This document shows, piece by piece, positions 1 to 46,458 of a stretch of 46,458 nt of DNA; the stretch's first letter is position 1; every line of letters starts with the position of its first letter. Below the pieces are notes generated by a model that was not told where the DNA came from, ran no database searches, and saw only the letters and a list, made by a program, of their open reading frames with translations. This DNA comes from a virus, in the IMG/VR virus record IMGVR_UViG_3300020027_000016, positions 1-46,458 of that record; one strand, written 5' to 3'. Position numbers and translations under genes: made by a program.

Positions 1-1230
1 ACGCATATAGAGATTTGTTCCCATTGGATTAGGGGAAATCGTCCAATGGTCATCCATGTTTTCAGGATAGATATCCATTAATTCGTTATTCACGAAAATG
101 GCATATGCACCTTCAGGATAAAGAGACATAAGATGCTTAGCTAAGTCAACATTTCCTAATTGAAAAAACTGCCAAGGCCGAAGCCAAAGGCAGGCAACGT
201 TAGCGGCATTCTGAGGCATTTCTCCAAAATACTGTAACGGTATCTTTGTATAGGTTTCCCAAGAACCAGATGAACCAGCTTGAATCCTATCAGCTTTATC
301 CTGAAAGACTGAACGAAGCATAGGCACTGACTGTAAGAACTCTAGAAGGAGATATCCGCACTCTTCTTGGTTTCTTGCATAAGCCGAAACTTTAACATTT
401 CTACCCGAGAACAACTCTTGGCAAATAATACCTTTAGGAGTCTCATCCCATCCCACAATTTGCGGAAACTTATCGGATGAGATTTGCGGCTCAACTGGAC
501 CTTGATAACCACAAGTCATACAGTTCCCGATGGGCTCAGGAGTTCCCGTTCCCCCATCAATTGCTTCGCCACACTGAGGACAATGAATCTCGAATTGAAC
601 TAAATCTTTAAATTCGATACGAGGAGTCTTTAAGGTGCCGTATTTTGGGTCTTTATGATAATAGTTATAGCCAAAAATCGTGCCGTTGTTAAAAATAATC
701 GTCAATGCTTTAATAATCTGCATTGCCGCTTTGTTATGCAGCTGATTCAACTCAGTAATGGCACCATAACCGCGAGCCGTCTCTACATCATTAGGATTAT
801 CTGGATCATCTGGAAAGTAAACGACTCCGGGAATGGCTACGGAGAGAGCGGCTACAATTACTTCTCCATAAGGACGATAAATATTAATAAGTCGAGGAGG
901 AGTCTCTCCCTCTTCCTCTAATCTATTCCAGTCGGGAACTACCCAAGTACCAGTGGTCGGATCTTGAAAGATATCAAGAATATTATTCCAGTAATACTCT
1001 AGCCGTTCCCACAGAAGTAAATAGTTATCTCGGACGAACCTATCCTCATCCTTGGCATCTCGATAGAGTTGCCCTAAGGCCTTCTGAATTTCTTCTTCAG
1101 AGAAAGGAGGAGCTTGAGGAGTCTGTTCCTCTACAAGAATCTCCTCTTGCATAACTTCTCCCTCTTCAGGAATTTCTTCCTGTGAGAAATTATCTATAGG
1201 TTCTTCTAAATAACTATCGAGCTCGTCCAT
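1..1230 (-). CDS. Portal protein, N-terminal part (runs off left edge)
   Basis: The frame is open for 410 codons from an ATG at 1230 to the window edge. Its place directly after the large terminase is the usual portal position. The first 40 residues are acidic and proline-rich. At about residues 216-239 there is a zinc-ribbon pattern, CPQC then 16 residues then CMTC. The ATG overlaps the stop of the preceding 31-residue ORF as TAATG, so translation is probably coupled. The missing C-terminal half is probably the fragment at the right edge, giving about 750 residues, close to P22-type portals. Portals form the dodecameric ring through which DNA enters and leaves the capsid. The identification rests on gene order, size and context rather than on a catalytic motif. 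Confidence 0.72.
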   Translation of the reverse strand, partial: MDELDSYLEEPIDNFSQEEIPEEGEVMQEEILVEEQTPQAPPFSEEEIQKALGQLYRDAKDEDRFVRDNYLLLWERLEYYWNNILDIFQDPTTGTWVVPDWNRLEEEGETPPRLINIYRPYGEVIVAALSVAIPGVVYFPDDPDNPNDVETARGYGAITELNQLHNKAAMQIIKALTIIFNNGTIFGYNYYHKDPKYGTLKTPRIEFKDLVQFEIHCPQCGEAIDGGTGTPEPIGNCMTCGYQGPVEPQISSDKFPQIVGWDETPKGIICQELFSGRNVKVSAYARNQEECGYLLLEFLQSVPMLRSVFQDKADRIQAGSSGSWETYTKIPLQYFGEMPQNAANVACLWLRPWQFFQLGNVDLAKHLMSLYPEGAYAIFVNNELMDIYPENMDDHWTISPNPMGTNLYMR

Positions 1231-1325
1231 TAGCACTTTCCGTAAAGAGACTTAAATGTCTTCTTAGGCTTCATTACTCTCTCTTTAGATACTGCTTCTA
1301 CTGACTTAATGCCTTTGAGATTCAT
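1230..1325 (-). CDS. 31-residue basic peptide between TerL and portal
   Basis: A short ORF starts at an ATG overlapping the end of the upstream 85-residue gene and stops in a TAATG shared with the portal start. The product is basic, with a lysine-rich middle (VMKPKKTFKSLYGKC) and a terminal Cys. No family is recognised. Overlap at both ends is the organisation of real genes in this operon, and it would carry ribosomes from the upstream gene into the portal gene. A role purely as a translational bridge is possible. Confidence 0.5.
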   Translation of the reverse strand: MNLKGIKSVEAVSKERVMKPKKTFKSLYGKC

Positions 1326-1563: not shown

Positions 1564-4249
1564 CTTGAGTAACCTCAGCATGTTCACACATCCGATAAAA
1601 AGAAGTCTGATCGTTTGTCTCAGCCAGTTTTTTACTCGCAAGCCCAGTCCTTTGCTGGACTGCAAACTCATTCTTAGCTTCTGCAAAATAGTCTCTACAG
1701 CCATTAAGTAAAATCCTTAAACAATCGTAAGAGTCGTCCCCGTCGAATTCCTTAACATCTTCTTTCTTAACTTCGTCATAAACACAAGTAGAAATTGCCT
1801 CTGTTAATTGCGAAGTGGAGTTACCTTCTGGAGAACGAGAAAAAATCTGTAACTTTGGTAAGTTGTGTTCAACTTCTTCAGGTTCATAGAAAGAAGCATA
1901 TTCCCGCATTGCTTCGCTACCCTGCATTCTCTCAATGCGTCGTGCTAATTCTTGACTGAACTCACCAACAATACTTTTAACAGTCTGGAGCGGCTTCCAG
2001 CGGAGATATTCATGGACTAACTGTTTGCCAGCGACTCTATTCTTATCTCCAAGAGTAAGTCCACACTTAAATCCAGCTTCTGCTAATGATTCGGCACACT
2101 GCTCAAAGATAGTCTGATCTTGGCCTCGGTCCTGGACGGCTGACCAACAAATACGAATGTCTCTTACATTCTCAATTTCACCAGCTGAGAGAAGTGCTAA
2201 ATCTCTGGTCCATTCTCGAATCTTGACTTTCTTTACTGCATAAGTTCGATAAATGTAAACACGACCGTCAGGACTAATAGCAGCCCATATAATGAAGCAA
2301 AAAGCAGCAAAGCCCCAGTCGATGCCAATAATCTTAGGCCACCATGAAGGAATGACAAAAGGCTCGACAACATGCTGCGCATGATTAGGCTCGTCTCGGA
2401 GAGGCTCAATCCTAAATTCCTCGAAGACTTGACCTTCAAAGGTATACCAGTCTCCAAGAATCATTGCCCGGCGCTCAGCTTCGGAGGTTATCTGTTCGAG
2501 ATTCTTAAAGTAATTCGGGTTAGCGGCAATTAAGTGCGGATTATCCTTAGCCGTTGCTGGAATAAATATCTTCATTGCCCCAGTTCTTGGATCTTTAATG
2601 ATTTTTCCACCAGTTGGAGCCGGATCAATAAATCTCTTACGGAAATACACATGTCCGACGTTGCCAGGGTTACTTCCCCATCTTACAATCGAGGGTAAAC
2701 CTGAACCGACAGGGGCACGATTCCTTCTCAAAGTCAAATATTCGTACTGATATCCTGTGAAAGAGGTAGCTTCATCAAATGCAATGTATGGAAACTGACC
2801 AGTATCATACTTCTTGACGTCTTTTTCTTCTTTGAGGTGTCCGAATGTATACATTCCACCGCGAGGAAACTCCCATCTATGCTTGGAGATGTTATAAACT
2901 CCGCCCATAGAAGGAAAGTACTCTTTGGAGCGGAGAATGACTTCCTGTTCAAGTTCTGGAAAGGTTCTACGGAGTAATAAGCCTCTAAAACGAGGATTAT
3001 CTAACCATCCGTAAAGTGCTGGCATGAGCATGAGTACCTGAGTATTATGGGTAGGAATAAATGACTTAGTAATCAGGTATATTCCTCCTTCTACTTGGAT
3101 ACATTTTGTCGAAACAGATGGAATTTCTTTTTTGGACTTGAAGTAATGCCAATTTCTAGTACTAAACGTACTAGCTACAGGGAGCCGTTCTATTTTCCTG
3201 AGTAAGTTAAATACCCTTTTCTCTGTGGTGAAGTTAATCCTATATTTTTCCCCATAATCCACCCCATTTAACTTTGCTCGTCCTGTGGAGAATCCTGCCT
3301 TAATTCCAAGGGACCGAATTAAAGTTAGGGTTCCCAGGGCCAACTCTTTATTGACCACTAAAAATTCACATCTACCTTTAGAATCTATAGTTCCATCAGT
3401 ATCCATCAAACCTCGAAGCAACTCAAGGCGAGAATTTTCTGAGGAGAATAAATATTGTTCTGGTATATGTTTATTTTGTAATAAGTCTAAAGATCTAAGT
3501 AAATGATCAATTCCTAGAATTCTATAAGCGTAATTAGCAGCATATTGACTTATCTTGTATCCATAGCTTTGGATAGTATGGAGAGTCTCTGCATCATTAC
3601 AAGTAAATCCTCCACCTTGACTAGCTCCATCCCCGAGCCACGCACCTAATACATAAGGATGTAAGGGAAGATTCTTATCTTCTGTGTCAAATGCTAAAGC
3701 AACAGGAATAGAATCTGGTAACTGTTTAGTGTTTAATTCTTTAGTGGTAGCTATTCGTCCCTTAATTGACTCAGCTTTCTTAGGAGTCTGAATCTGATTC
3801 CTTAAGGCTAAGTCAGGACGCTTACCTAGAGATCGAGAAGGTCGAGAAGCTCTACGAGCGGCACGATATTTATCTGTTTGTTTCCTTGCTCTTTGCCTAT
3901 CATTATGAGTGAGGATCCACCAATTATGATCTTCTCCGGCAATAACGACTTCCCCAGAGTCAAATTCTAACTCATAACATTTATTAGAAGTGAAAATCTC
4001 GGATTCGGCAAGAACTTTAACAGGAATTCCAAATTGATTAAATACAATATCCCCAGGATGAATATCTTCCATCCTTTTGAAACCATCTGGGGTTGGAACT
4101 AGAGTATTTAAATCTAAGTCTTTCCCAGCTCCCAAAGCCCCGCCGTAACCTGCTTCATGAATCTCAAATGGAACCTGGATAAACTTCTCCTGCTTCAAGG
4201 TGGGCTTGAAGACTTGACTTTCTAAGGGAGAAGCTACCGAAATGTCCAT
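1511..4249 (-). CDS. terL: Terminase large subunit (TerL) interrupted by an intein
   Basis: The 912-residue precursor becomes a 553-residue terminase after removal of residues 44-402. The ATPase P-loop is reconstituted across the splice junction as GALGAGK/T. Walker B is IAFDEAT. The nuclease domain has IIGIDWGF as its first acidic motif and an Asp-rich segment (FDGDDSYDC) near the C-terminus that fits the last metal-binding motif. TerL packages DNA into the prohead using ATP and cuts concatemers. The start overlaps the stop of a 26-residue ORF as TAATG. The intein sits between the P-loop Lys and Thr, so unspliced protein should be inactive. Confidence 0.93.
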   Translation of the reverse strand: MDISVASPLESQVFKPTLKQEKFIQVPFEIHEAGYGGALGAGKDLDLNTLVPTPDGFKRMEDIHPGDIVFNQFGIPVKVLAESEIFTSNKCYELEFDSGEVVIAGEDHNWWILTHNDRQRARKQTDKYRAARRASRPSRSLGKRPDLALRNQIQTPKKAESIKGRIATTKELNTKQLPDSIPVALAFDTEDKNLPLHPYVLGAWLGDGASQGGGFTCNDAETLHTIQSYGYKISQYAANYAYRILGIDHLLRSLDLLQNKHIPEQYLFSSENSRLELLRGLMDTDGTIDSKGRCEFLVVNKELALGTLTLIRSLGIKAGFSTGRAKLNGVDYGEKYRINFTTEKRVFNLLRKIERLPVASTFSTRNWHYFKSKKEIPSVSTKCIQVEGGIYLITKSFIPTHNTQVLMLMPALYGWLDNPRFRGLLLRRTFPELEQEVILRSKEYFPSMGGVYNISKHRWEFPRGGMYTFGHLKEEKDVKKYDTGQFPYIAFDEATSFTGYQYEYLTLRRNRAPVGSGLPSIVRWGSNPGNVGHVYFRKRFIDPAPTGGKIIKDPRTGAMKIFIPATAKDNPHLIAANPNYFKNLEQITSEAERRAMILGDWYTFEGQVFEEFRIEPLRDEPNHAQHVVEPFVIPSWWPKIIGIDWGFAAFCFIIWAAISPDGRVYIYRTYAVKKVKIREWTRDLALLSAGEIENVRDIRICWSAVQDRGQDQTIFEQCAESLAEAGFKCGLTLGDKNRVAGKQLVHEYLRWKPLQTVKSIVGEFSQELARRIERMQGSEAMREYASFYEPEEVEHNLPKLQIFSRSPEGNSTSQLTEAISTCVYDEVKKEDVKEFDGDDSYDCLRILLNGCRDYFAEAKNEFAVQQRTGLASKKLAETNDQTSFYRMCEHAEVTQDENISVRRVSRMRRSRR
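3044..4120 (-). other. Class-3-like intein with LAGLIDADG endonuclease in TerL
   Basis: This 359-residue in-frame insertion begins DLDLNTLVPTPDG and ends FIPTHN, followed by Thr. Position 1 is Asp instead of Cys or Ser, so the standard first step of splicing is impossible. Three other residues match the class 3 (WCT) pattern: Trp after the block B His (GEDHNWW), Cys in block F (TKCIQVEG) and Thr before the terminal His-Asn. In class 3 inteins the block F Cys makes the first attack. A homing endonuclease of the dodecapeptide type is present: LGAWLGDG at about 158-165 and LRGLMDTDG at about 235-243 of the insert, both with their catalytic Asp. It looks able to splice and able to home. Confidence 0.88.
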
Positions 4250-4786: not shown

Positions 4787-6756
4787 TATTTCCTTGCCAT
4801 CGTAATTACGATTTTTTGACTATCCTCAGCGAGAATCTTCCAGTCAGGATGAACTGTATAAGTTCCAAAGGGCCGAACTCGAACCATACAAGCAAGATTC
4901 CCAACAATCATTCCCCAAGTACCTAGAGAATTCTCCTCTATAATTGGACAGTTACCTAAACCAATTCTAGTATACTCTCCTAATTGGAAAGTCGGAGTAA
5001 CTAATCGCAATCCAGTGACGAATGCCTTAGCACATTCTAATTCTAGTCCTACTGGCATTACTGAATTTCTACCAGATTCGTGATGATACGTGCCACCGGC
5101 ACCCATTAATTGGCAGCCTGCTCCGTGACTGTGAAAGTCAGATGGAACATTAGAGCGGCGACCGGGAATGCTATCTATCCATCCACCGATAGGCTCATCA
5201 TGGGGAATAGGACAATTTAATGCGGGAGCACCTTCAACTACTCCCCCGGTCCTATACTCAAGTAATTGTCTAAACTTCCTTGGCCATTCATTGCCCCTAT
5301 CTAAATGGACAGTAACATAAGAACCTTTAGGAAGTCCAGTGTTAGCTCCATTAAAGCTATAAACTCCAGTGGCCCAGGGAAAGTTCCAAGCACTGGTATT
5401 AAGACGGGATACAAGTCCTTCAATATTAATGCCGTTCACATCAGGTTCGTTTGTCAACTCAATGAATATATTTTTGTGTCTAGAGGCGATAGCGGCAATC
5501 TTATTTACATAATCTACTTGCTCATTTATTCCATAAGGATATGTATGGGTGACTAACTCACAATACATACCTTCTTGAGATAAGAGATTTAAGAATGAAG
5601 GGAGGGAAGTAAAGTAATTTGGGTAATCTGAAACGATTAAATCAGGAAGCCCGGTAGCGGCATTCCAAGAACACTGCCCGAATACTCGAAATCCGTTATA
5701 ACCTAAAGCAGACCAAGCCTTGACATAAGGACGAATATCCTCACCATCAAGGAATCTCTTAAATAAAAGAAAGGATGAAGCAAAACAGTAAGGGAAGATG
5801 TTATTTTGCTCATCACGAAAGACTAGATTATCTACTCGAATACGAGAAATGGTACCTGGTGGGATAATTGGTGGCTCAATTGGGGGTGAGATGGGCTTGC
5901 ACTCTTTAAACTTCCGGGCGGCGCCGGTTCTTCCTGTTCCAACTGGATTAGTAAAAGAAGCGAACATAGAACCGTCTTCTGTCCAGACTCTAGCTCCGAA
6001 TCCTGGGTTTTCTCTATCAATGAATGAGAACTCCCTACCATTTTTTAATTCATCGAGATTCCAATTAATGACGGAGACTTCCGGTTTCTTTAATGACACT
6101 GGAGGCTCCACTGGATTAAGTAAAGGAAGATTCTGAATTTCACTCAGAGTGCAAAGAGTAACATAACCGGTATTAATTCCATTTACATTAGTGTAATAGT
6201 AAAATGCTAAATTATTACTGACACGATGATAACGAAGGAAAGAAGGACCACTTTGAGATAGAACTCTAAGGGTGCCGTTATCGTTCACGACTGTCTTGCC
6301 GCTGACCCCTTGACCGACCCTAATACCATTACCAATATAAACCCACTCAGCTAGTCCAGTCACTCCACCATTACAAGAGTCGTGCCCGACTAATTCTTTG
6401 GTGTCATAATTAATATGAGAGAATCCAGTAGCCCCTACACCTGGAAATTGTCCCGGGCGTTCAGAGATAGCCAAATCTCCACCATCATTAAAGATAACAG
6501 GTGAATTTCCATAAGTAGGTTGAGAAGTATGATTCCAACCGTTATTATAAATTAAAACAAATCCACCTTCGTGAGATTTGCCTGCAAACTGTTCTCCATC
6601 TGGATGAATTCTTGAAAACATACAATCATTCCCGAATGATTCGAGGGGAATGAATTTCTTGTCAGTCTGAACGCCGGCGCCGTTAATGACAGAGATATAC
6701 TCTCCAGTTGCAAGAGCGTCGCCATAGCCACCGCCTGGGATAATGATTACTTTCAT
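4786..6756 (-). CDS. Virion-associated glycoside hydrolase (clan GH-A-like) with beta-rich N-terminal half
   Basis: The product has 656 residues in two halves joined by a proline-rich linker (about 287-301). The N-terminal half is Gly/Asn/aromatic-rich with recurring short strands (GGFVLIYNNGW, WTEDGSMFASF), suggesting a propeller or other binding fold. The C-terminal half looks like a (beta/alpha)8 glycosidase. FIELTNEPDV at about 432-440 is the Asn-Glu-Pro motif of GH5-like enzymes, with E437 as predicted acid/base. YHHESGR near residue 565 could hold a second catalytic carboxylate. It probably degrades host surface or capsular polysaccharide as a tail-associated enzyme. The polysaccharide cannot be told from sequence. 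Confidence 0.72.
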   Translation of the reverse strand: MKVIIIPGGGYGDALATGEYISVINGAGVQTDKKFIPLESFGNDCMFSRIHPDGEQFAGKSHEGGFVLIYNNGWNHTSQPTYGNSPVIFNDGGDLAISERPGQFPGVGATGFSHINYDTKELVGHDSCNGGVTGLAEWVYIGNGIRVGQGVSGKTVVNDNGTLRVLSQSGPSFLRYHRVSNNLAFYYYTNVNGINTGYVTLCTLSEIQNLPLLNPVEPPVSLKKPEVSVINWNLDELKNGREFSFIDRENPGFGARVWTEDGSMFASFTNPVGTGRTGAARKFKECKPISPPIEPPIIPPGTISRIRVDNLVFRDEQNNIFPYCFASSFLLFKRFLDGEDIRPYVKAWSALGYNGFRVFGQCSWNAATGLPDLIVSDYPNYFTSLPSFLNLLSQEGMYCELVTHTYPYGINEQVDYVNKIAAIASRHKNIFIELTNEPDVNGINIEGLVSRLNTSAWNFPWATGVYSFNGANTGLPKGSYVTVHLDRGNEWPRKFRQLLEYRTGGVVEGAPALNCPIPHDEPIGGWIDSIPGRRSNVPSDFHSHGAGCQLMGAGGTYHHESGRNSVMPVGLELECAKAFVTGLRLVTPTFQLGEYTRIGLGNCPIIEENSLGTWGMIVGNLACMVRVRPFGTYTVHPDWKILAEDSQKIVITMARK

Positions 6757-6986: not shown

Positions 6987-7363
6987 TTCTTGGTACCTTG
7001 CTTACTGTTATGATGAGCAATATACATGCCCAATCCACTAAGTAATCCTGCTGCAATCTTAGCCGTTTTCGGATTCTTTTTAGCGACATCATCTAATAGA
7101 TATGTAGATGCTGCTGTTCCCAATCCTCTAATAAGAATCATTTTACCTAATCCTGGCCGTTCACCGTAAATTGGATTCTTCTCATATGTCCCAGGTCTAT
7201 TTAATGCTTTATGAGTTGAATAAATATCAGCTCCGGCGCCTAATGCCATCATTGGAATAGCAAGCTTACGAAAAGATGCCTGATTCTTTTCTTCTTTTTT
7301 TTTCTTAGTCTGAGCGGCAAGTAAAGACTGAAAAGCCATGATTAGAATTATCAGATAATACAT
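6983..7363 (-). CDS. Small membrane protein
   Basis: After an N-terminal hydrophobic stretch and a lysine-rich segment (KKKKEEKN) come three probable membrane segments around residues 35-50, 77-92 and 101-115. The motif ADIYSTHKALN...EKNPIYGERPG resembles DUF5658-type small membrane proteins, which have Asp/Thr in one helix and an E-x-NP loop. Two starts are possible: 7363, overlapping the fibre gene by 13 bases, or 7339, just after its stop. Neither has a good ribosome binding site. Function unknown. Confidence 0.6.
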   Translation of the reverse strand: MYYLIILIMAFQSLLAAQTKKKKEEKNQASFRKLAIPMMALGAGADIYSTHKALNRPGTYEKNPIYGERPGLGKMILIRGLGTAASTYLLDDVAKKNPKTAKIAAGLLSGLGMYIAHHNSKQGTKK

Positions 7364-8655
7364 GGAATACGATAAACTTGACCAGTGCCATCAGTCATAA
7401 CGATCGACGCATTGGTGAGTGCGGCCAAAATACCTGCGCCTAACCCTGTAGTTGCATTAGCCGAGACTTGATGAATGGCTTTTACTGTTCCAAATACTGA
7501 TTGTGTTCTGGCTTTTACTTGTAATGTCCCGTCCGTGGTGACATCGAAGCCGATGCCTGCGGTGTTTTCGGCATTGACAATATTTAATTGGCCGTTAACT
7601 CCTGCGCCAACAGGACCGGAATAAAGGCGAGTCACGCCAGAAAAACCAACAAAATTATTAACAGCGGCAGTTACGGCCCCCCCGGCTGTAAGGCCATTTA
7701 GTACGGAAATCGTCCCTCCACTGCTTACCACAACGGGATAACTGAGGGTTAATGCAACTGGGTCTATAAAACCTAGTCTCCACGTTCCAACTACCGTCGT
7801 CCCACTCGTCGGCAAGACTTCGGTAAAGAAGGAAACAGTCCGACTTACACTGTTATCCGTATCCCATCCTGTGCCTGATAATCTATTCCGGGGAGAGATT
7901 TGGGCAGGGACGGCTAAAGTTGCCACTGTTGCATTTTGATTTACTATTCCATCTGTGGATGTAGTTATTAAATTTAATGCTCCGCCACAAGTAAAAATTC
8001 CACTAAGAGAGAAGGTACCAGTAACGGCAATAGCATTACTTCCAATTGTAGCCCCACCTAAAGCTAAACTAGTTCCTATAGCTACTCCTAAAGTAGGAGT
8101 TGTAAAGGAAGGGGATATAAGATTAGCTTTAAGATTTAAAGCAGTTTGTAAGTCAGTCTGGTTACTTAAAGTACCTGTAATAGAACCCCAGGCCACGCCA
8201 CTAACAGGAGTTTGAAATGTAAGTAGTCCAGCACCATTAGTCGTTAAGACTTGACCATTCGTACCGTCCGGAATAAGAGAGACTAATGGAAATGAAAAGA
8301 TATCTCCACTTTCAGTAAGCCCATAAATTCCAGAAGTGAAAGAGACGGTAACAGTAACTGCCGTTCCGAGGGCGGAGATTCTTGCACGAATAAATCTTGC
8401 AGAAGTATAAGCTTGTCGAATCTCTCCATTTACATTCGTGGAAGTATCAATAGTGAAGTAAGTGACTTCATCTAATGATGCCTGTAGGAGAATCGTAGCG
8501 GAGGCTGGAGCAGATCCGTATTCGACTTGCCAAGAGACAGCATTGGCACTCGGCCCTTGTAATCCGAAAGGAGTGCCATTAGTTCCTGCCCCTCCAGATG
8601 ATGCTTGGAGTGAGAAGACTTGAATGCCGTGAGTTGCTGTCTTTCTTAAAGGCAT
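7351..8655 (-). CDS. Tail fibre-like protein
   Basis: The 434-residue protein is rich in Gly, Thr, Ser and Ala and short on charge and Cys, like trimeric phage fibres. At about residues 155-177 it contains WGSITGTLSNQTDLQTALN, a shaft motif common in tail fibres. The first 120 residues form a beta-rich domain that may attach to the virion, and the remainder is strand-turn repeats (GTFSLSGIFTCGGALNLI and similar). It probably contributes to host recognition. Its start directly abuts the stop of the upstream gene. Confidence 0.75.
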   Translation of the reverse strand: MPLRKTATHGIQVFSLQASSGGAGTNGTPFGLQGPSANAVSWQVEYGSAPASATILLQASLDEVTYFTIDTSTNVNGEIRQAYTSARFIRARISALGTAVTVTVSFTSGIYGLTESGDIFSFPLVSLIPDGTNGQVLTTNGAGLLTFQTPVSGVAWGSITGTLSNQTDLQTALNLKANLISPSFTTPTLGVAIGTSLALGGATIGSNAIAVTGTFSLSGIFTCGGALNLITTSTDGIVNQNATVATLAVPAQISPRNRLSGTGWDTDNSVSRTVSFFTEVLPTSGTTVVGTWRLGFIDPVALTLSYPVVVSSGGTISVLNGLTAGGAVTAAVNNFVGFSGVTRLYSGPVGAGVNGQLNIVNAENTAGIGFDVTTDGTLQVKARTQSVFGTVKAIHQVSANATTGLGAGILAALTNASIVMTDGTGQVYRIPCII

Positions 8656-9027
8656 TTACTCTCCAAAGGAAAGTGTATTCCAATTGAACTTTTTGGAAGT
8701 CTCCACTGATTCCTGTAACTCTTTTTCGATTGCAGCCTGTTGCTGTTGTAATTGAATTGAATGAAGTTGCATTCTTGCCTTGAATAAATCTACTGACTTC
8801 TGCTCATCAATGAGTGCCATCTGATGAACTTTTGCTTTCAGGAGAAGAAGTTCGGGGATTTCTTTTTCCGGAGCTTCCTTTTTCTCAAAGGGGAGTATAT
8901 CGCCTTGAGGGAGTACACTGGTATCTGGTGCAGTTGCCGCTGCGGGGGAATCATTAATGTCGGCGGCTGGAGCGGCACCGCTAGCATCTTTAGCATCTAG
9001 CCTATTAACTAACTCTAAGTCACTCAT
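8656..9027 (-). CDS. Coiled-coil protein of unknown function
   Basis: A 123-residue protein with an Ala/Pro/Asp-rich flexible first half and a helical second half (VHQMALIDEQKSVDLFKARM, then a Gln-rich run QLQQQQAAIEKELQ). No enzyme motif is present. It overlaps the upstream HTH protein by ATGA and abuts the fibre gene. An assembly or chaperone role for the fibre is possible, but nothing in the sequence proves it. Confidence 0.7.
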   Translation of the reverse strand: MSDLELVNRLDAKDASGAAPAADINDSPAAATAPDTSVLPQGDILPFEKKEAPEKEIPELLLLKAKVHQMALIDEQKSVDLFKARMQLHSIQLQQQQAAIEKELQESVETSKKFNWNTLSFGE

Positions 9028-10066: not shown

Positions 10067-10576
10067 ATGGACATGATTACGATTCGGACAGCGACACGGG
10101 GACGCGCACCGCAGGCGTTCAGCTATCAGGGTATCGGCAAGGTGACTGAGACTCGGGAACTCGAAACTAAGGCGGGCGAGAAGTTCCAGATCGACGAAGT
10201 GGAGACGGCTGGACTTTTTGAGTCACTCGATAGTGCTTTGGAAGCCACTGGCCTGAGCATGGAGGAAGTGTATTCGGCCATTGCTGATGCATTCAACACG
10301 AAGCAGCGGAACGAAGCATCCCCGGCCGCCGGCGTTGCTCCGCATGCGCTCGATAGCCTTGTCGCCTACATGGTCGAGAATGGCATCGTGGAGAACGACG
10401 AAAAGGAACTCAAGTCCTGGAAGCGCCGAATCAGCACGGCGGCTCCCGTTGTGTTCGATGGCCTCAGCACTCCAGCGGCAATCCTCTGGACTGGACTCCG
10501 GGATAAGGCTGGACGCTTGGCTCTCAAGTCGGGCTATACACCTGAACTGGAAAAGCCTGTTCTTGAGGAGGACTAA
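10067..10576 (+). CDS. G+C-rich, independently transcribed gene of unknown function (moron-like)
   Basis: The 169-residue product is not recognised. It is soluble, with a basic start (MDMITIRTATRGRAPQAF), an acidic middle (KFQIDEVETAGLFESLDSAL) and an amphipathic C-terminal half ending in ELEKPVLEED. No membrane span, Cys pair or catalytic motif is visible. The start at 10067 has GAGAG upstream; an in-frame GTG at 10052 is less likely. The gene is clearly richer in G+C than its neighbours and has its own promoter (9990-10018) and a strong terminator (10632-10673). These are hallmarks of a moron, a late-acquired cargo gene. Cargo at such sites often affects host defence or superinfection; that role is inference. 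Confidence 0.75.
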   Translation: MDMITIRTATRGRAPQAFSYQGIGKVTETRELETKAGEKFQIDEVETAGLFESLDSALEATGLSMEEVYSAIADAFNTKQRNEASPAAGVAPHALDSLVAYMVENGIVENDEKELKSWKRRISTAAPVVFDGLSTPAAILWTGLRDKAGRLALKSGYTPELEKPVLEED

Positions 10577-26534: not shown

Positions 26535-26561
26535 TTGCCGCTCACGTTATAATCGAATAAA

Positions 26562-36899: not shown

Positions 36900-37880
36900 T
36901 TAAGCAGGCTGACCGAAGGCAAGATCAGCCTGATCGTTAACGTAATTCATCCAGAAGTCGCTAGACGCTCCAGTATAACCAGATGAAGGAGCAATCTGAG
37001 CTTCAGTGTTATTGAAGAAGTTCAAATGCACCTGATTATTTCCACCCTGAGTAGAGACGAAAGTGGTAGAGATAACCTTATTCGTGGAGCCAGAGCCGGC
37101 AGTAAGGAGTTCATTTCCTTTAATGATTCCATAGCTCAATGACATTTTAATATCATTGAGATTCTGCTGGAAACGATTACCTGCCCCAACTTCACCAATC
37201 TTCCATGAGAGCGGAACGGCAATGCCAGTAGAGATACCCTTGATAGCTGTATCTCCAAGAGCCTGGAATCGAGAATTAAGAATAGTTACATAGCCGCAAC
37301 CACCTACATCTTCGATTCCAATTCCATTAGCGCCGCCCCCGACCATATACATGCCTAAGAATTGCGCATGTCCACCGTCCATATCAGAAGCCGTTTCTGC
37401 CCGTGATAATCTAACACAAGCAGAAGCGGCAACAGGAGCCATCTGGAAGTTAGCGAATGTCCATCCCGATTCTCGAACCTTCAATAAAGGAGTCATTGCC
37501 GTTGGACTAGAAGGCGATAGCCATGAAGCGCCACCACCAGTAGCCACACCACCATCAGTCGCTTGACGAGGCTGATTACCGGCACCGATAATCATTCCAT
37601 CAAATACATCCTGCGGAGTAACGGCCTGTTCGCGGAATACACCATCAATGACGAGAATGTCATAACTACTCATCTTTGCTAGTGCATAAGTAATAGTAGC
37701 AAATCCATCTCTAGGACTCCTACCTACATGGCCATTACTGCCAGTATAAGTAGCTCCTTCTCCATTTGCATACCAAATATTTCCAATCATAGTAGGATTC
37801 AAACCAGTAACGAATCCACCTCGATTGAAAAAGTCCTTAATTGACGCCTGATAATTTCCCGGGTAAATCTGTGGTAACAT
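36900..37880 (-). CDS. Beta-helix-like virion protein
   Basis: The 326-residue protein has a Gly/Asn/aliphatic repeat pattern (YDILVIDGVFREQAVTP, VTILNSRFQALGDTAIKG, IIKGNELLTAGSGSTNKV) like right-handed parallel beta-helices of the pectate-lyase type. FATITYALAKM near residue 61 matches the opening of many such domains. Catalytic residues cannot be placed. It could be a capsid decoration or a tail appendage. GGAG six bases before the ATG lies in a closing stem (see 37887-37918). Confidence 0.6.
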   Translation of the reverse strand: MLPQIYPGNYQASIKDFFNRGGFVTGLNPTMIGNIWYANGEGATYTGSNGHVGRSPRDGFATITYALAKMSSYDILVIDGVFREQAVTPQDVFDGMIIGAGNQPRQATDGGVATGGGASWLSPSSPTAMTPLLKVRESGWTFANFQMAPVAASACVRLSRAETASDMDGGHAQFLGMYMVGGGANGIGIEDVGGCGYVTILNSRFQALGDTAIKGISTGIAVPLSWKIGEVGAGNRFQQNLNDIKMSLSYGIIKGNELLTAGSGSTNKVISTTFVSTQGGNNQVHLNFFNNTEAQIAPSSGYTGASSDFWMNYVNDQADLAFGQPA

Positions 37881-37928: not shown

Positions 37929-38609
37929 TTAATAATCCCCTAACCAAGTTCTACTTCTTCCGTTCCTAAATGGCCTCCTTCTGACTCTTAATCCTTGATG
38001 ATTCTTCACCAAATTTGCAATTAATAATTCTAGTGATTGTGCCGCTGAGATATCCAGGGCATCCGCAAGTTCTAGCTGCTTTCTAATGAATCTTGCAGAC
38101 AGTGCCGCCGTTTTATAAGCAAGAAAATTATTCGCCCCTGCCTGATTTTCAAGGCTTCCAGACTCAGTAGTGATACTACCCTGTCTCCAGTAATAAAGTC
38201 TTACTTGTCTAGCCTCAGTGGCCCCGACAAAGTTAATACAGTTATGACGGAAATCCCAATATGTTAAGACTGTTCCCTGATTAAGAGATAAGTCATAAAT
38301 ATTTGCAACTTCTTTCATATCACAGTAGTCTGCTTCTTGAGTGCTTCCGTTTCGTCTCTCTTTAAGGGAAATAGGTAAAAAGAAACTAGTAGGAAGACTA
38401 AGAGTAATAGTGCCTGCCGTTACCGTGCTCTCATACTCAGAAATTAAATTTAAAGGACATTCATTTACTTGCAGTTCCTGTTCGAGTTGCTGATTAGCCA
38501 TCTTGAGATAAGGAATCTGAACTGCATAAGTGAATAGACTCTTTCCGGGGTCATTTAAGAGCGCAGCGGCAGAGTCCATTACGTCGCCGGCTGTATAAGG
38601 TGCTGCCAT
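37929..38609 (-). CDS. Tail adaptor (T7 gp11/tail tubular A-like)
   Basis: The start at ATG 38609 has GGAG upstream; the frame also opens with a TTG one codon earlier. The 226-residue protein starts with helices (DVMDSAAALLNDP) and has LPTSFFLPISLKERRNGSTQ and VRLYYWRQGSITTESGSLEN in the middle, followed by a helical AALSARFIRKQLELADAL and a basic tail. This is the plan of portal-tail adaptors in T7-like and P22-like phages. Probably joins portal to nozzle. Confidence 0.65.
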   Translation of the reverse strand: MAAPYTAGDVMDSAAALLNDPGKSLFTYAVQIPYLKMANQQLEQELQVNECPLNLISEYESTVTAGTITLSLPTSFFLPISLKERRNGSTQEADYCDMKEVANIYDLSLNQGTVLTYWDFRHNCINFVGATEARQVRLYYWRQGSITTESGSLENQAGANNFLAYKTAALSARFIRKQLELADALDISAAQSLELLIANLVKNHQGLRVRRRPFRNGRSRTWLGDY

Positions 38610-38612
38610 CAA

Positions 38613-41180
38613 TTACTCCAAATCTGGATCTGCGCTAGGGAGAGCGCAATCATTTAAAATTGTTATCGTTACTGTATCGGCTAAGGTTAAACAAATAGAA
38701 GTCGCAGCTAACTGAAGTACATAAACTCCAGCTAATGAAAACGCTGCTGTTGGATCTTGAATTGCTGAGCTACTAAAATTAACTGATCCAGGACCGCTTA
38801 CTTTAGTCCATAGAAAAGTAACTCCAGTAGTTCCTACAACAGTTCCATCTAACTGAACAGTTACTCCAAGTAAAGCCTGCTGGTCAGTTCCTGCATTAAC
38901 GGAAACAGGATTTGCGCATGTAATAGTAATAGTGACATCATCAGTAGCAGAGCCAGCGCCATTATTAACCGTAAAGCGGAATACATAAACACCTGAAATA
39001 GTAAAAGTAACTGTCGGATCATCAATAGCAGGATTACTAAATACTGCGGTTCCTGGACCTGATACCTGAGTCCATAAAACGGTCACATCGGCGCAAGGAA
39101 AGTTACCGGCACCGGCAGTTCCATTCATTTGAACTATATCAAAAGCAGGAACAGATTGATTAGGCCCAGCATCAGAAGTCGGCAATAAACTCCCAGGAAC
39201 TATCTCTCCTTCATCTTTAAATGCAATCCACTTTGTTACTATAGTATCCGTACTTAGAGAGGAATCTAAAGAGAAACCATCGGTCGTTAACGCCGTTATG
39301 CCAGTAGTGTTAGTAGTCGTTTCATCCCAGAGAGAACTATCTGCGCCAGTATGGACTAGGGCACTTCTCCATTGTGGGATAACAGCATCAATTATCTTAC
39401 CAGTAACAAATGCTGGTTGGAAGTCAACCCCTGTTACTGTTTCGCTCGCTCCAGTTCCAATAAATTGATTATAATTGAATAAATCATCTAGTCCAAATAG
39501 CATCCGAATAGCAAAGTAATAATAGACACTAGCAGATTTTAGCTCTGCTCCGAATGTAAATCCATTACTTACTAAACTATCAATGTAATCTACAACTGTC
39601 GTAGTGTTGTCTAAGGGGACACTATCTCCAGGAATTTCCTGATCTGAGCAGTAAACAAGAACATCGTCTCCTTGAACCATAACAAAGTCAGGTTCCCATG
39701 CTGCTTTAATGGTCACGGTATCTAATGCCTGAGCTCCAGGAAAACCAACGAAGGCTCCATATCGAAGATACTTACAATCTACTCCGATGCCTCCGTCTTG
39801 AATACAAAGTGCTATGTAAGTTTGTCCAGATTCAAAGGATGGACCAATAGTAAATCCATCATCAGTTATTAACATTACTGCTAACGGATCTACTGTAGTA
39901 GTATTAATAACTCGACTTTGGGTTCCCCCGTTACATCCTACTTTGAAGAAACCTGCTTCATTAGTACCAGAATATTTCTTTACAAGAATAACTTGGGGCC
40001 TGAATCCAACACCTGTAATTTCCTGAAATGTCCCGGTAGCAACAAAAGTAATGACATTGTGCTTCCATGATTCTTCTCCTGTTAATTCTTTTGGTAAATT
40101 ACTACCAGCGTGAAGAACTTCGATATATTGTTGAGCTAAAGTAACAACTTGAGTTCTTCGATTTTGCGCACCATAAGTTAAACTATTAAAGTCAGCATTA
40201 GTGAGAGAACCCATTTGCTGATAGAAATAAGGATAAGTGGGATAGGCCATGACAACCCCAACTGTATATTGAGTATTGTTTATAAGTATGGACTCATCAC
40301 CATCTGCATCTGCTTTAATAGTAGTATACAGATTAAATCCTGTAATACCAGAAAGTCCTAAATTAATTGCGCTTGTATGAGAAAACTTAACTTGGGCATC
40401 TAATACTGAGGATACAATCGCTCCACTTGTTGAAATACCAAGTGGAATATTGGTGATATTTTGATAGACACCTGACCAGCTAGAGGCAACCATAGAAGTC
40501 GCTGAGGCTCTGGTAATCCTAGTAGCTGCGGGAAATACTGGTGTCTGTGCCTCAACTATCTGAGAATACCAATCGTCGAAGGATATATTATAAAGTCCGC
40601 CAGTAGTTTGATGATTACCTAAAGAGGGAGGAGGAAAATCTGGACTGGCAGTAATACCCGTAGCTGAACCTGTTACAGTAAATAGTAAAACTCCGGCCTC
40701 GGTATAAATTGAGCAAGTCGCAGCGGCAGAAGCCTCAGAGCCATTATCAGTTAATGTCATGGTGAGGTCAGCACGATACCATGTATCAATTGCTAAAACT
40801 TCAGTACTAAGTCCACCTTGACCCCCATAAGCTACAATCTGAACGGTCATAGCGGCACCAATGCGTAATTGGCATCCAGTTATTGGATCATTAAATGGGG
40901 AAAACCCCACTATCATTGGGAAATCAGTATCAATCGTTTGCTCAATCCTGAAAAGTACTCTGCAAACTCCAGTAGCAAATGAATTAGTAATTCCTTGACC
41001 AGCATCTGGAGTAGGACCAGTTAAGGAACCTGCTCCAGACGCTGATCCGTCAAAACAACGTAGATAGTATTCTCCTGTCCTTGCATTGCCATCATCGACA
41101 AACAAAGCTTGTGAATTAGAGTTCGGCCAATCTACCTTGCCGCCCTCGAATCCTGTGAAGAATATATCGTATCCGGCCAT
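38613..41180 (-). CDS. Large virion surface protein with two PKD/Ig-like repeats
   Basis: The 855-residue protein is Ser/Thr/Gly-rich. The N-terminal 220 residues look like a concanavalin-type lectin fold (MAGYDIFFTGFEGGKVDWPN; GGLYNISFDDWY near 205). A beta-rich middle (330-660) includes repeated sections with G-F-x-P-x-V or D-G-F-T/S (FRPQVILVKKYSG, FQPAFVTGKI). Two PKD-type repeats follow at about 669-754 and 755-840, each with AG-x-(D/N)-Q, a W-x-(Q/K)-VSGPG core and a G-V-Y-V end. Likely a capsid decoration or adhesin that binds glycans or mucus, by analogy with Ig-like domains on other phages. Confidence 0.7.
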   Translation of the reverse strand: MAGYDIFFTGFEGGKVDWPNSNSQALFVDDGNARTGEYYLRCFDGSASGAGSLTGPTPDAGQGITNSFATGVCRVLFRIEQTIDTDFPMIVGFSPFNDPITGCQLRIGAAMTVQIVAYGGQGGLSTEVLAIDTWYRADLTMTLTDNGSEASAAATCSIYTEAGVLLFTVTGSATGITASPDFPPPSLGNHQTTGGLYNISFDDWYSQIVEAQTPVFPAATRITRASATSMVASSWSGVYQNITNIPLGISTSGAIVSSVLDAQVKFSHTSAINLGLSGITGFNLYTTIKADADGDESILINNTQYTVGVVMAYPTYPYFYQQMGSLTNADFNSLTYGAQNRRTQVVTLAQQYIEVLHAGSNLPKELTGEESWKHNVITFVATGTFQEITGVGFRPQVILVKKYSGTNEAGFFKVGCNGGTQSRVINTTTVDPLAVMLITDDGFTIGPSFESGQTYIALCIQDGGIGVDCKYLRYGAFVGFPGAQALDTVTIKAAWEPDFVMVQGDDVLVYCSDQEIPGDSVPLDNTTTVVDYIDSLVSNGFTFGAELKSASVYYYFAIRMLFGLDDLFNYNQFIGTGASETVTGVDFQPAFVTGKIIDAVIPQWRSALVHTGADSSLWDETTTNTTGITALTTDGFSLDSSLSTDTIVTKWIAFKDEGEIVPGSLLPTSDAGPNQSVPAFDIVQMNGTAGAGNFPCADVTVLWTQVSGPGTAVFSNPAIDDPTVTFTISGVYVFRFTVNNGAGSATDDVTITITCANPVSVNAGTDQQALLGVTVQLDGTVVGTTGVTFLWTKVSGPGSVNFSSSAIQDPTAAFSLAGVYVLQLAATSICLTLADTVTITILNDCALPSADPDLE

Positions 41181-42019: not shown

Positions 42020-42560
42020 TGAATACCTTATTCGGGACGGTAACGGCGCCACCATCATGGAGGGCCGACTGGATAGCTGTGCCATCCAATTTGTTTAAAA
42101 TGTCTGAACTTTCTTTAGACATCTTTTCATTATGATTATACTGTGCCTGTTCTCTAGTCTTAGGAACGACTGAAGCAGGAACATCTACAGGAATAATCTT
42201 TAATGCTGCCTTGACTACGAGTTCCATAATGTCATAGTTCAGCGGCAATCCTTTTTTAAAAGCATAGAGCGGCTCATAAGTAAAGGCACCCTCAAATACA
42301 TCCTGAAAATTATTAGGATGGAGGCGCTCAATTACCCACTGACCATCTAACCAGCCATACTTTGGGGCATTCCTAACTCCGGTTTCTCCACGAAGAAAGA
42401 TACCCCCTTCTGAAAAGATTCTATGTGTTCCATATTGTTTCTCATACTGTTCATCTGAGAATACAATTCGGAAATGGGGGAGTAAAGTTTCGACATGAAT
42501 GCCGTATCTCTCCCTTAACTTATTATTGAAATTCTGTGCGTCGATTGAATCTGATAACAT
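42012..42560 (-). CDS. 182-residue head-region protein, unknown
   Basis: The mixed alpha/beta N-terminal part is NNKLRERYGIHVETLLPHFR. It also contains YGWLDGQWVIERLHPNNF and ends in a charged helix and a flexible tail (HDGGAVTVPNKVFNG). No recognised family. Conserved head-completion proteins are often near this position. No ribosome binding site is visible; a hairpin lies between it and the decoration gene. Confidence 0.65.
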   Translation of the reverse strand: MLSDSIDAQNFNNKLRERYGIHVETLLPHFRIVFSDEQYEKQYGTHRIFSEGGIFLRGETGVRNAPKYGWLDGQWVIERLHPNNFQDVFEGAFTYEPLYAFKKGLPLNYDIMELVVKAALKIIPVDVPASVVPKTREQAQYNHNEKMSKESSDILNKLDGTAIQSALHDGGAVTVPNKVFNG

Positions 42561-42945: not shown

Positions 42946-44217
42946 TTAGTAGCCAGTCGGAACATCAAGTCCGTAGATATAAGCGGCAGTGGCAGGATTC
43001 TTACAGAAAAGGTTCCATGAAGCAACCAGATAGAACAACTGACTGGTAGCAACACCCCCACTATTACCACGAACCTCGAAGAACTTCTTTCCCCCAACAT
43101 CATAGAAACCTGGCGATTTCATTTCCGCTCGGCCCCAGAAATTGGAAGCAATGAAGTCAATACGAGTCATATCCCAGTGAATAGACTGCTGAACAGTGAC
43201 ACCAGCAAGCTGCATTGCATCAGGATTGTAGAATTGGTCAAGACCAGGAGTACCAGAGGGCGGCTTATTGATAACAGTAGTAAGCTGTCCTAACTGTTCA
43301 TAAGCATCCAACTGAGCAGGATTCAACCACGCCTTCAGCTTCAACCTTTTTGCTTCCATAAGACCGATTCGATTCATCATCTTATTCAGAGTCAGTCGAA
43401 CCTGTGGAAGCTGAAGTGGGCCAGCGGCATTAGTACCAGTAGAACGAATCTCAGGATTATCTGCCCGAGAAAGTCCTAACCAAGTACCAGTAGAAGCATT
43501 GCTATTGTGATACGGGACACCATAGAGTGAGACAGGATTGGCCCCTGAAACACCGTCGATAACCAATACGTCAGTTGCAATGAAGTCAGTCGTGTTCGGA
43601 GTTGTCTTGATAATCTTATTAGCCGAGTCGTAATAAGTAATCTCGACAGCGCCAGCGGCAGTACGATTCGTGGCCAGAGTTGCGTCATAAACATTGACTT
43701 TCTGACCAGACCTGAGAAGCATAGCTCCGAAACCATCACTATCAAGAGTAACAGTATCGAAACCAGCACCGGCAGACACTGCACTAGCCGTTCCCAAAAC
43801 ACCAGTGCCAGCCTGCATACAGAGAGCATCTGAATCGTGGCGGAACTGAGGCATAGAGCTAGAGACTAACTTGTTAAAAGCATTAACAACTGCTTTCCGA
43901 GTATCATCCGTAGCCCATTCGGCTTTCTTAGTCCATTCACATCCAAAGCGGAGATTAATAGTGTTGATAACTGCCTTATCGTAGTAAGGAGCGCCACCAC
44001 GTCCCAGATCTCCACCATCGGAGTCAAACTGACCAAAATTGCCGCCCGGACGCATCATTAAAGGAATACGCATATCCCGAGCAGAAATCCGCTCGACATT
44101 GGCATCCTTATCAATACTTCCGTAAAACGTATCATCTTTCTCGTACAGTCCTTCTACTAATGGAGTCACTCGCTCCATTTCAGCAGAAATAACTGATTCA
44201 CTATTCTGTACAGCCAT
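42946..44217 (-). CDS. Major capsid protein
   Basis: The 423-residue protein follows the acidic scaffold gene. The N-terminal half contains RDMRIPLMMRPGGNFGQFDS and the expected E-loop-like Gly-rich segment. The middle carries an A-domain-like stretch (QKVNVYDATL, VLVIDGVSGANPVSL), and the C-terminal third has LKLKAWLNPAQLDAYEQL. Its length and position fit an HK97-fold shell protein of a short-tailed phage. The fold is inferred, not proven. Confidence 0.8.
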   Translation of the reverse strand: MAVQNSESVISAEMERVTPLVEGLYEKDDTFYGSIDKDANVERISARDMRIPLMMRPGGNFGQFDSDGGDLGRGGAPYYDKAVINTINLRFGCEWTKKAEWATDDTRKAVVNAFNKLVSSSMPQFRHDSDALCMQAGTGVLGTASAVSAGAGFDTVTLDSDGFGAMLLRSGQKVNVYDATLATNRTAAGAVEITYYDSANKIIKTTPNTTDFIATDVLVIDGVSGANPVSLYGVPYHNSNASTGTWLGLSRADNPEIRSTGTNAAGPLQLPQVRLTLNKMMNRIGLMEAKRLKLKAWLNPAQLDAYEQLGQLTTVINKPPSGTPGLDQFYNPDAMQLAGVTVQQSIHWDMTRIDFIASNFWGRAEMKSPGFYDVGGKKFFEVRGNSGGVATSQLFYLVASWNLFCKNPATAAYIYGLDVPTGY

Positions 44218-44223
44218 TCAAAC

Positions 44224-45450
44224 CTACTTTGTATATGTAATCTTCCCGGCTAGCACATCTGCATCAGTTGTCTTGGACCAGTCAATCTTTTTGAAATCAA
44301 CCTTACCGTTAGACTTTCCTGGTGCCATGTTACTAGAGGGAATACGTTTAACTTCTTTCTTAGTCTCATCTTTCATTTTAAACTTGTCATCAAGTTTATA
44401 CTCAGATAAGACTGCCTTACGAGCCTTGGAAATCTCAACACTTGCGCGTGACAGAAACGCGAATTTAATGCTGTCTTTCAAGTAAAATTGAAATCCATCC
44501 CTCGCTGCTTTATTCCAAAGTGCATTCATCTTATTCATATGGGTTCTATCTTTTTCAAGAGTTTGTCCAATTCTCTTATAGATATCGTTGACCATAGAAT
44601 TAATAAGTGGCTTAGCAATTCCTGAATTTTCAAATTGCTTACCAATTAATGACTTAGTTCTCTTCTCGATAGAATTGGCGACTTCTTTAGTAAATTCCTC
44701 GCTTTTGCGGGTCTCAAATTCCCGTTCCTTCTTATCAATTTCATCTTCCTTACTATTATCTCTCGGTTTGAGCCCTTCATCTTTAGCTAAATCGGTATCT
44801 CCGAACATGAACCAGTTAAGGTTCTCGGCAGATACCTTTAATCTTGGATCGCTAGACTTTGCCGCTGCCCGAAGCGCTTTCTTAATTTCAGGGTAGATCA
44901 TCCCGAAATACAAGTCTTTATTTTCAGCTTGTAAAGTAGTCGTGAAGTTAGCGACGAATGTCTCTAATGCCTTCTTATTCGTCTGCCCGAGCGTCTTAAT
45001 AATGCCCTCAGACTTGCCGGCCATTAAATCTTTTTCGTAAACAGCAAAGGCTTCACCCGTCTCAAATGCCTGTTTGGCATCTTCAACAGTGGGATAGTAC
45101 TTAGAATACTCTTGCTCACGGAAAATGACTGAGCGGAGTTCGGGAACTTTCTTTAGAAGTTTAGCATCATAAGACTTGAGTTTCTGATAAATAGAATCAA
45201 AGGCTTCTAAATCTTCTTCCTCATCATCTTCAGAATCATCTGATTCCTCCTCAGATTCTTCTTCATCTTCAGATTCTTCTTCAGAATCTTCCTTATCATC
45301 ATCTTCTTCAGTTTCAGGAGAATCATTGACATCATCTTCCTCATCAGCAGATTCTTCCTTTTCAGTCTTATCTTCCTTATCTGGCTTACCTTCCTCCAGA
45401 TATTTCAATTCATCTTCCATTCCTAAAACGTCCGCAATTCCTTCAGCCAT
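44224..45450 (-). CDS. Scaffolding protein
   Basis: The 408-residue protein has an acidic N-terminus (residues 12-83, almost only Asp, Glu and Ser) and a helical, coiled-coil-prone middle. It ends in a basic segment (KKEVKRIPSSNMAPGKSNGK) that suits contact with the capsid protein. Position between portal and major capsid genes is the standard scaffold place. No protease signature, so removal of scaffold may be by exit rather than cleavage. Overlaps the portal end by eight bases. Confidence 0.78.
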   Translation of the reverse strand: MAEGIADVLGMEDELKYLEEGKPDKEDKTEKEESADEEDDVNDSPETEEDDDKEDSEEESEDEEESEEESDDSEDDEEEDLEAFDSIYQKLKSYDAKLLKKVPELRSVIFREQEYSKYYPTVEDAKQAFETGEAFAVYEKDLMAGKSEGIIKTLGQTNKKALETFVANFTTTLQAENKDLYFGMIYPEIKKALRAAAKSSDPRLKVSAENLNWFMFGDTDLAKDEGLKPRDNSKEDEIDKKEREFETRKSEEFTKEVANSIEKRTKSLIGKQFENSGIAKPLINSMVNDIYKRIGQTLEKDRTHMNKMNALWNKAARDGFQFYLKDSIKFAFLSRASVEISKARKAVLSEYKLDDKFKMKDETKKEVKRIPSSNMAPGKSNGKVDFKKIDWSKTTDADVLAGKITYTK

Positions 45451-46458
45451 TTACCTTATCCTTGTTTGTTGGCTTAGACTCAGGTGCCGCTGCCTGTTGT
45501 TCAGCAATTTGTCTAGCCTGTTGAGCAGCTAATACTTCTTCGTGAGCGGCAAGATGCTGAATACTTGCCATCATTCCTTCTTGACTTAACATTCTTCCTT
45601 CTGGGCCTTCTAATAAAGATTTAAGAGTCTCTGCGTGAATGGCGTTGTTATCTACCATTTCATTAATGGGAATCGGAATCCCCTGACTCAAATCTTTAAA
45701 TTCTTCTAACTGTCTCAATCTACTATCTTCTCCAGGAATATACAAGTCTGAGATACCATAGGCATCCTTGAGGATACCTGAGTTCCTTGGATGAGCTAAG
45801 ACTTGTAAGACAGCATCATTATTTAATGACATTAACTGCATCATGGCATCTTTCCGAGCGGCCCATGTTATAGGTAACTGATCAGCACTCTCAGGCTCAC
45901 ATCTTCCTATCTTACCTGTGAGAGATGCTTGTCGAATCCAGACATTAACGAATCCTCCGCCTTCTCGTTTGGCGAAGTTCTCATCCATTCCGAGCTCTTT
46001 AAGGACATTAGCCTTTTCTACTGCGGAACGAGATTGAAAGTCAGCCCAGAAGGTGGAGATAATCTTCCAAATAGTTCCTAACCTCTGGAGAGCCTGAGCC
46101 TTGGATTGCTGGTACTCAGCGGCAGTCTTACTTCCACCTTGAGCAGGGCCACCATAGACTGATGGATATGCACCAGATACGAATTGAGCATCATTATCAA
46201 TGTGCTGACGAAGTGGATCTATTTCTTGAGAAAGAATAGCTGACTTGACAGTGTGGAAGCCGTCGGCAATTGTCTTTCCAGGAACAGGCTTGGCTTGAGT
46301 AACCATTCCTGGCTTGGCACGACTTCCACCATATTTAGTGAAATCAAGGACTCTCGGATCAGCAAAGGTTTCTGGAATTCCATATTCAGCAGTCTGTAAT
46401 TCAATTTCTACGAGTTCGGCACGAATATCTTGAATAGTAGCAAGATTCTCACCGAGAG
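45443..46458 (-). CDS. Portal protein, C-terminal part (runs in from right edge)
   Basis: The frame is open across the window edge for 337 residues up to the stop at 45443; ATG 46306 is internal. The text before it (LGENLATIQDIRAELVEIEL) is a helical segment. The C-terminal part includes GIPIPINEMVDNNAIHAETL and an Ala/Gln-rich helix (AHEEVLAAQQARQIAEQQA) like the barrel helices at the end of P22-type portals. It directly precedes the scaffold gene. Most likely it is the second half of the portal whose first half is at 1-1230; the reading frames differ by one base at the simple junction. Confidence 0.72.
   Translation of the reverse strand, partial: LGENLATIQDIRAELVEIELQTAEYGIPETFADPRVLDFTKYGGSRAKPGMVTQAKPVPGKTIADGFHTVKSAILSQEIDPLRQHIDNDAQFVSGAYPSVYGGPAQGGSKTAAEYQQSKAQALQRLGTIWKIISTFWADFQSRSAVEKANVLKELGMDENFAKREGGGFVNVWIRQASLTGKIGRCEPESADQLPITWAARKDAMMQLMSLNNDAVLQVLAHPRNSGILKDAYGISDLYIPGEDSRLRQLEEFKDLSQGIPIPINEMVDNNAIHAETLKSLLEGPEGRMLSQEGMMASIQHLAAHEEVLAAQQARQIAEQQAAAPESKPTNKDKVNG

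Follow-up and report, generated by a model that had tools for sequence, protein, structure and literature searches.

AGCGGCA, a heptamer iterated through a soil-type phage genome, and the differing words of its relatives

Why would a phage genome repeat one seven-base word dozens of times, within genes and between them? The question is raised by the IMG/VR virus record IMGVR_UViG_3300020027_000016, the genome of a soil-type phage, which was analysed over its whole length of 46,458 bases (hereafter, the window). A first-pass annotation, made from the sequence alone, had reported about 60 scattered copies of AGCGGCA or its complement TGCCGCT where chance would supply two or three. An exact-match count gives 65 copies (43 AGCGGCA and 22 TGCCGCT), whereas 2.8, 2.4, and 2.8 are expected under Markov models of orders 0, 1, and 2, respectively. 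The observation is confirmed and is stronger than first reported. The word is exact and independent of codon usage, its density is maintained without conservation of its positions, and it is switched between phage lineages.

Abundance of AGCGGCA in the window

The excess over the low-order models is approximately 23-fold, the density is 1.4 copies per kb (about one per 0.7 kb), and no other 7-mer of the window is as over-represented as AGCGGCA (z of about 35–40). The same letters read backwards, used as a control, have 0 copies. All positions given in the first-pass annotation hold, save that 10742 should read 10743. The copies found in the exact-match scan are listed below, with the sign showing the strand on which AGCGGCA reads.

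202..208, +, copy, intergenic
724..730, -, copy
2522..2528, +, copy
3857..3863, +, copy, inside the terminase intein
5491..5497, +, copy
5656..5662, +, copy
6297..6303, -, copy
7313..7319, +, copy
7663..7669, +, copy
8935..8941, -, copy
8971..8977, +, copy
10474..10480, +, copy
10743..10749, +, copy
12685..12691, +, copy
12842..12848, -, copy
12911..12917, +, copy
13142..13148, -, copy
13227..13233, +, copy
13668..13674, -, copy
13807..13813, -, copy
14882..14888, +, copy
15289..15295, -, copy
15747..15753, -, copy
15812..15818, +, copy
16332..16338, +, copy
17492..17498, +, copy
17542..17548, -, copy
18421..18427, +, copy
19073..19079, +, copy
20107..20113, -, copy
20191..20197, -, copy
21608..21614, -, copy
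21721..21727, -, copy, intergenic
21751..21757, +, copy, intergenic
22460..22466, +, copy
22837..22843, +, copy
23376..23382, -, copy
25367..25373, +, copy
25396..25402, +, copy
26536..26542, -, copy, intergenic
26597..26603, +, copy
28195..28201, -, copy
28270..28276, +, copy
29008..29014, +, copy
29536..29542, -, copy
29995..30001, +, copy
30451..30457, -, copy
31089..31095, +, copy
33094..33100, +, copy
33223..33229, +, copy
35325..35331, +, copy
36432..36438, +, copy
37425..37431, +, copy
38040..38046, -, copy
38565..38571, +, copy
40722..40728, +, copy
40851..40857, +, copy
42241..42247, +, copy, scored as intergenic
42982..42988, +, copy
43423..43429, +, copy
43654..43660, +, copy
44860..44866, -, copy
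45485..45491, -, copy
45545..45551, +, copy
46118..46124, +, copy

The first-pass annotation had named an order-5 Markov model and codon-pair preference as accounts that might dissolve the word, and had argued that a preference for a single amino acid would not suffice. Markov models of higher order do approach the count (13.3 copies at order 3, 30.7 at order 4, and 56.8 at order 5), but their prediction is circular, because the hexamers within AGCGGCA are mostly AGCGGCA itself (65 of 78 GCGGCA and 65 of 83 AGCGGC lie inside it). When synonymous codons were shuffled with the proteins kept, a mean of 5.2 and a maximum of 13 genic copies were obtained (maximum of 12 in a repeat with 1000 shuffles), compared with the 60 observed. 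Most genic copies (47 of 60) lie in the frame that encodes Ala-Ala; the other frames hold 13 where 0.9 are expected. A further five copies are intergenic (0.2 expected; P-value = 2e-6), and density is equal in genes and gaps. The base before the codon pair is also biased: T precedes GCC GCT in 32 of 40 cases (38 per cent expected; P-value = 8e-8), and A precedes GCG GCA in 15 of 17 (P-value = 4e-7). This bias, the copies in other frames, and those between genes show that DNA, not protein, is the level at which the word is imposed. Ala-Ala pairs are themselves in excess in the window proteins (104 versus 70), with 57 of the 104 encoded by GCC GCT or GCG GCA, as expected if AGCGGCA is placed at sites that the proteins tolerate. 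A compositional artefact of codon or codon-pair bias, Ala-Ala richness, or low-order base composition could draw on the Ala-Ala frame and on the order-5 prediction; we regard it as the least probable explanation of all, refuted by the shuffles, the preceding-base test, the copies outside the Ala-Ala frame, and the circularity of order 5, and at odds with the lack of a comparable 7-mer excess in 24 of 25 unrelated phages.

Form and placement of the word

One-base variants of AGCGGCA are near background except for AACGGCA (8-fold) and GGCGGCA (5-fold), with weak effects at the last base. The looser AACGGCA family had been noticed before and is indeed common (27 copies versus 3.4 expected). The copies had also been thought to extend often to GGTGCCGCTCG. 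That extended form is exact in only three copies; the flank signal itself exists, as a preference for C or G upstream at -1 (49 of 65) and -3 (52 of 65). A sequence-specific reader whose CGGC-type core is fixed and whose ends are softer has just such a profile of variants and flanks. Refinement of the motif by expectation maximization drifted to a codon-periodic signal and was abandoned.

The spacing of the copies is consistent with random placement (coefficient of variation of 0.84, compared with 0.78–1.23 for random positions), which speaks against a regular ruler for packaging or a nucleoid. The strand split of 43:22 in the window is close to 1:1 in two other genomes, G002 and G044. Relative to transcription, 24 genic copies are sense and 36 antisense, and no strand or transcription polarity is consistent across the genomes compared. 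The orientation and spacing checks proposed in the first-pass annotation accordingly yield neither consistent polarity nor regular spacing.

Words of related phages

The marker for finding the phage family, not proposed as a reader of the word, was this gene:

23537..26068, +, fusion of UDG and DNA polymerase A (PolA)

Patterns built from the polymerase alignment recovered approximately 140 relatives in IMG/VR, with 32–42 per cent polymerase identity; complete relatives are mostly 45–49 kb. Many of those below about 45 per cent G+C carry an iterated GC-rich word of their own:

AGCGGCA: L016 (44 copies), L092 (21 copies), L237 (14 copies in 16 kb)
AGCCGCT/AGCGGCT (AGCSGCT): L241, L249, L250, L018
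AGCCGCA: L020
AGCCGG: L021, L013
CGGCCGC: L244 clade and the distant L068
CCTCGCG: L067, L091
ACACGCG/CACGCGC: L036, L038
CGCGCGC: L275
AGAGCGCG: L082
CGCGCCCG: L086

AGCGGCA is asymmetric and not palindromic, whereas the CGGCCG, AGCSGCT, and CGCGCG of relatives are palindromic or nearly so. Some AT-rich members (e.g. L233, L272, and L288) have no iterated word. Members above about 48 per cent G+C show little word enrichment, possibly because chance already supplies GC-rich words. The highest 7-mer z has a median of 8 in 25 unrelated 40-kb phage pieces and of 11.5 in 21 family genomes (5.2 and 10.1, respectively, for the synonymous-shuffle z), and the window ranks top in that comparison with a 7-mer z of 32.5. 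The one unrelated phage with a comparable excess carries the highly iterated palindrome (HIP) HIP1.

In L040, L038, L041, L036, and L050, a second enriched word of ACCGGG/ACCCGGA type (CACCGGGA, CACCCGGA) stands beside the CGCG-type word. Another family member, G022 (L049), has an AT-rich iterated palindrome, ACATGTAA/TACATGTA, with 24 copies versus 1.9 expected.

Turnover of words and sites

The words follow clades on the polymerase tree, yet differ between close relatives (L013 versus L236, L021 versus L016). The same word also recurs on distant branches: AGCGGCA in the window and in L016/L092/L237, and CGGCCGC in the L244 clade and in L068. No gene was found to be unusually similar between distant sharers of one word, as expected if the reader is not phage-encoded, and a co-inherited phage gene explaining the common words was sought and rejected.

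Individual sites are short-lived. Between L016 and L092, which both carry AGCGGCA, only 2 of 32 AGCGGC sites are identical in aligned DNA, and over 16 pairings 37 of 118 sites are kept, compared with 28.5 expected from permuted control words. Ala-Ala pairs encoded by the word are conserved less often (11.8 per cent) than other Ala-Ala pairs (17.4 per cent). Density is held near one per kb although individual positions come and go at an almost neutral rate. Of the retention in relatives that the first-pass annotation looked for, high word density is what persists; the word is a different one, at different positions.

Gene content of the window phage

Genes with a possible bearing on the word, and their neighbours, are as follows:

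1511-4249, -, large terminase with an intein bearing a homing-endonuclease domain (intein at about aa 44-402)
13382, SNF2 helicase with N-terminal zinc ribbon
18013, Cas4-like exonuclease
19790, Sak4
21901, tRNA-Leu
26562, DUF3987 helicase

The DUF3987 helicase is labelled a primase by PHROGs; a catalytic primase domain was not identified, and the strand pattern of the word is not consistent. Family searches found no integrase or repressor among the window genes tested, and no methyltransferase was found in the window by family searches of most genes and a motif scan. Late genes are nearest to those of L032/G011 (terminase 70 per cent, capsid 59 per cent) and early genes to those of another clade; the window genome is a mosaic, with AGCGGCA in both halves. 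Next to Sak4, many relatives conserve a 96-aa protein that has three Cys pairs and is zinc-ribbon-like (19162-19449 in the window).

Among the relatives, a fusion of ParB and methyltransferase lies upstream of the polymerase in 20 GC-rich members with weak words (L025, L031, L079, L255, L263, and L268 among them), with a partial match in L280, and similar annotated genes occur in L009 and L012, which are distant relatives. Word-rich family members lack the fusion. The fusion is a lead only, because it is confounded with G+C and clade.

Comparison with known iterated words

To our knowledge, highly iterated words such as HIP1 have no settled function. HIP1 (GCGATCGC) and the alternate HIPs resemble the words of this phage family in being short, exact, GC-rich, present at about one per kb, and swapped among related genomes, with near-miss variants mainly at the word ends. 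The cyanobacterial alternate HIPs are GCsGC, rCCGGy, and GGCGCC (PMC4390886), and these cores lie within the family words AGCSGCT/AGCGGCA, ACCGGCT, and CGGCGCC. Furthermore, among 20 virus records drawn at random, G321 (IMGVR_UViG_3300036939_000084; L510-L511), which encodes a phage-type terminase, has HIP1 102 times in 107 kb (0.95/kb). It is probably a cyanobacterial virus bearing its host's word, and it shows that a viral word can match a known cellular word at similar density. By analogy, these two points (the alternate HIP cores and G321) favour HIP-type behaviour. HIPs, however, are palindromic, cellular, and tied to methyltransferases, whereas AGCGGCA is asymmetric, belongs to a set that switches among phage lineages, and has no methyltransferase found beside it in the window.

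A Chi-type word is possible. Like Chi, AGCGGCA is a short GC-rich word enriched in phages, where Chi is host-specific and density counts for more than exact position. Enrichment of Chi in phages has a median observed-to-expected ratio of about 2–3, at 0.2/kb (PMC3784561), and we measured 6 Chi copies, all on a single strand, versus 1.85 expected in Staphylococcus phage 80alpha. The 23-fold excess in the window, at 1.4/kb and without consistent polarity, is about ten times the published (PMC3784561) or 80alpha values, and the phage itself encodes an exonuclease and a Sak4. The first-pass annotation had pointed to AGCGG, the core of Bacillus subtilis Chi, but the resemblance lends little: AGCGG is enriched solely before C (83 of 107 are followed by C), and most family words do not contain it. 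The simple Chi reading through this core was rejected.

DNA uptake sequences of Neisseriaceae and Pasteurellaceae are likewise exact short words at high genome-wide density on both strands. They are a cellular competence signal, however, for which we know of no role in a phage of this kind, and the family words vary between close relatives. By analogy, a word whose density is kept while its positions are not behaves as Chi, uptake, and HIP words do, and unlike operators or regulatory sites. We do not claim membership in any of the three families; what stands of the Chi-like, methylation or nucleoid, and uptake-like options offered in the first-pass annotation is the general type: a recognition word spread over the genome, with selection acting on its density and not on its position.

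What sets the word

The phenomenon is unusual and family-wide; its function, and its cause in selection or drive by a reader owned by the host, we infer. We favour, with a probability of roughly 0.45, an explanation in which AGCGGCA is a highly iterated recognition word whose sequence is dictated by DNA-reading machinery of the host, with the phage following suit. In its favour are the exactness of the word, the excess beyond codon effects, the even spread over genes and gaps, the Ala-Ala excess, the density kept without positions, the lineage-specific words that recur on distant branches, and the HIP parallels. A sequence-specific host protein, either a Chi-type regulator of recombination or exonuclease activity or a repair-linked methyltransferase of the sort suggested for HIP words in cyanobacteria, would act on AGCGGCA. 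Copy number and the distance to the nearest next copy would then matter, not individual positions; new copies arising by point mutation would be favoured at sites where the encoded protein allows the change, mostly to Ala-Ala, and older copies would decay freely. A lineage meeting a reader of other specificity would have its word replaced genome-wide, and we propose that relatives differ in their words because they met such readers. Several observations weigh against a host-set word. In a check that the first-pass annotation had suggested, AGCGGCA did not come near 1.4/kb in any of about 430 genomes scanned as candidate hosts (Bacteroidota, Nitrospirota, Latescibacterota, and others), and a polymerase scan of GTDB returned, among the matches listed, generic PolA relatives alone, at 30 per cent identity or less. 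The words mostly track the phage tree, which a phage-encoded reader explains equally well, and the polarity expected of Chi and primase sites is not consistently seen. A GCSGC methyltransferase alone is insufficient, because AGCGGCA is non-palindromic and AACGGCA does not contain GCSGC.

The next candidate, possible but clearly less probable, is that the phage itself encodes the reader, a replication or recombination protein for which the word would be a Chi, priming, or pausing signal of its own, with a specificity that drifts along with the lineage. Candidates for such a protein include a priming factor, the SNF2 helicase with its zinc ribbon, and the Cas4-like exonuclease paired with Sak4. 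Words that track clades while their core drifts, being CGGC in the clade of the window and of CGCG type in the other, would suit such a reader, as would the compact set of SNF2 helicase, Cas4-like exonuclease, Sak4, PolA, and DUF3987 helicase in the family; but distant phages with the same word have no specifically common gene, L009–L012 have an equivalent module (PolA, PD-(D/E)XK nuclease, and AAA protein) without such a word, and there is no strand polarity. It is rather doubtful, though conceivable, that the word acts as a switchable genome-wide mark of identity, with the Cas4-like exonuclease, Sak4, SNF2 helicase, or a host sensor recognizing self by a copy in about every kb, and lineages swapping the word like a password through point mutations at dozens of sites. 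We consider it unlikely that the word is functionless and is created by biased mutation or repair (methylation-linked mismatch repair or gene conversion) faster than it decays, reaching an equilibrium density. The nearly neutral turnover of positions fits this, and for HIP words Elhai proposed a ratchet of this kind (PMC4390886). The Ala-Ala excess and the lower conservation of word-encoded Ala-Ala, however, suggest a word pushed against protein conservation, although a strong drive could push likewise, and the word-rich phages lack a methyltransferase of their own. Very improbable, finally, are repressor sites like the stoperators of cluster A mycobacteriophages, through which a phage repressor binding scattered copies would silence transcription. 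Each genome of that phage family has about 30 such scattered, lineage-specific, co-varying sites; they are 13 bp long, lie mostly in one orientation relative to transcription, and are targets of a phage repressor (PMC6550527). AGCGGCA has 7 bp and 65 copies, 60 of them genic, in both orientations and at positions that are not kept, and the genes tested include no repressor or integrase; orientation and turnover largely refute this account.

With many different words among its members, the family offers natural replicates: the reader might be traced by comparing words with gene content and, eventually, with hosts. A host-set word would offer a route to matching uncultured phages with their hosts, as the HIP1-bearing G321 suggests; a phage-set word would amount to a Chi of viral origin.

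As a separate observation, the control word ACGGCGA/TCGCCGT has 0 copies in three Bacteroidota genomes (G118, G215, and G255; about 4.2 Mb), whereas others have tens to thousands; the zero count is perhaps complete avoidance, reflecting restriction.

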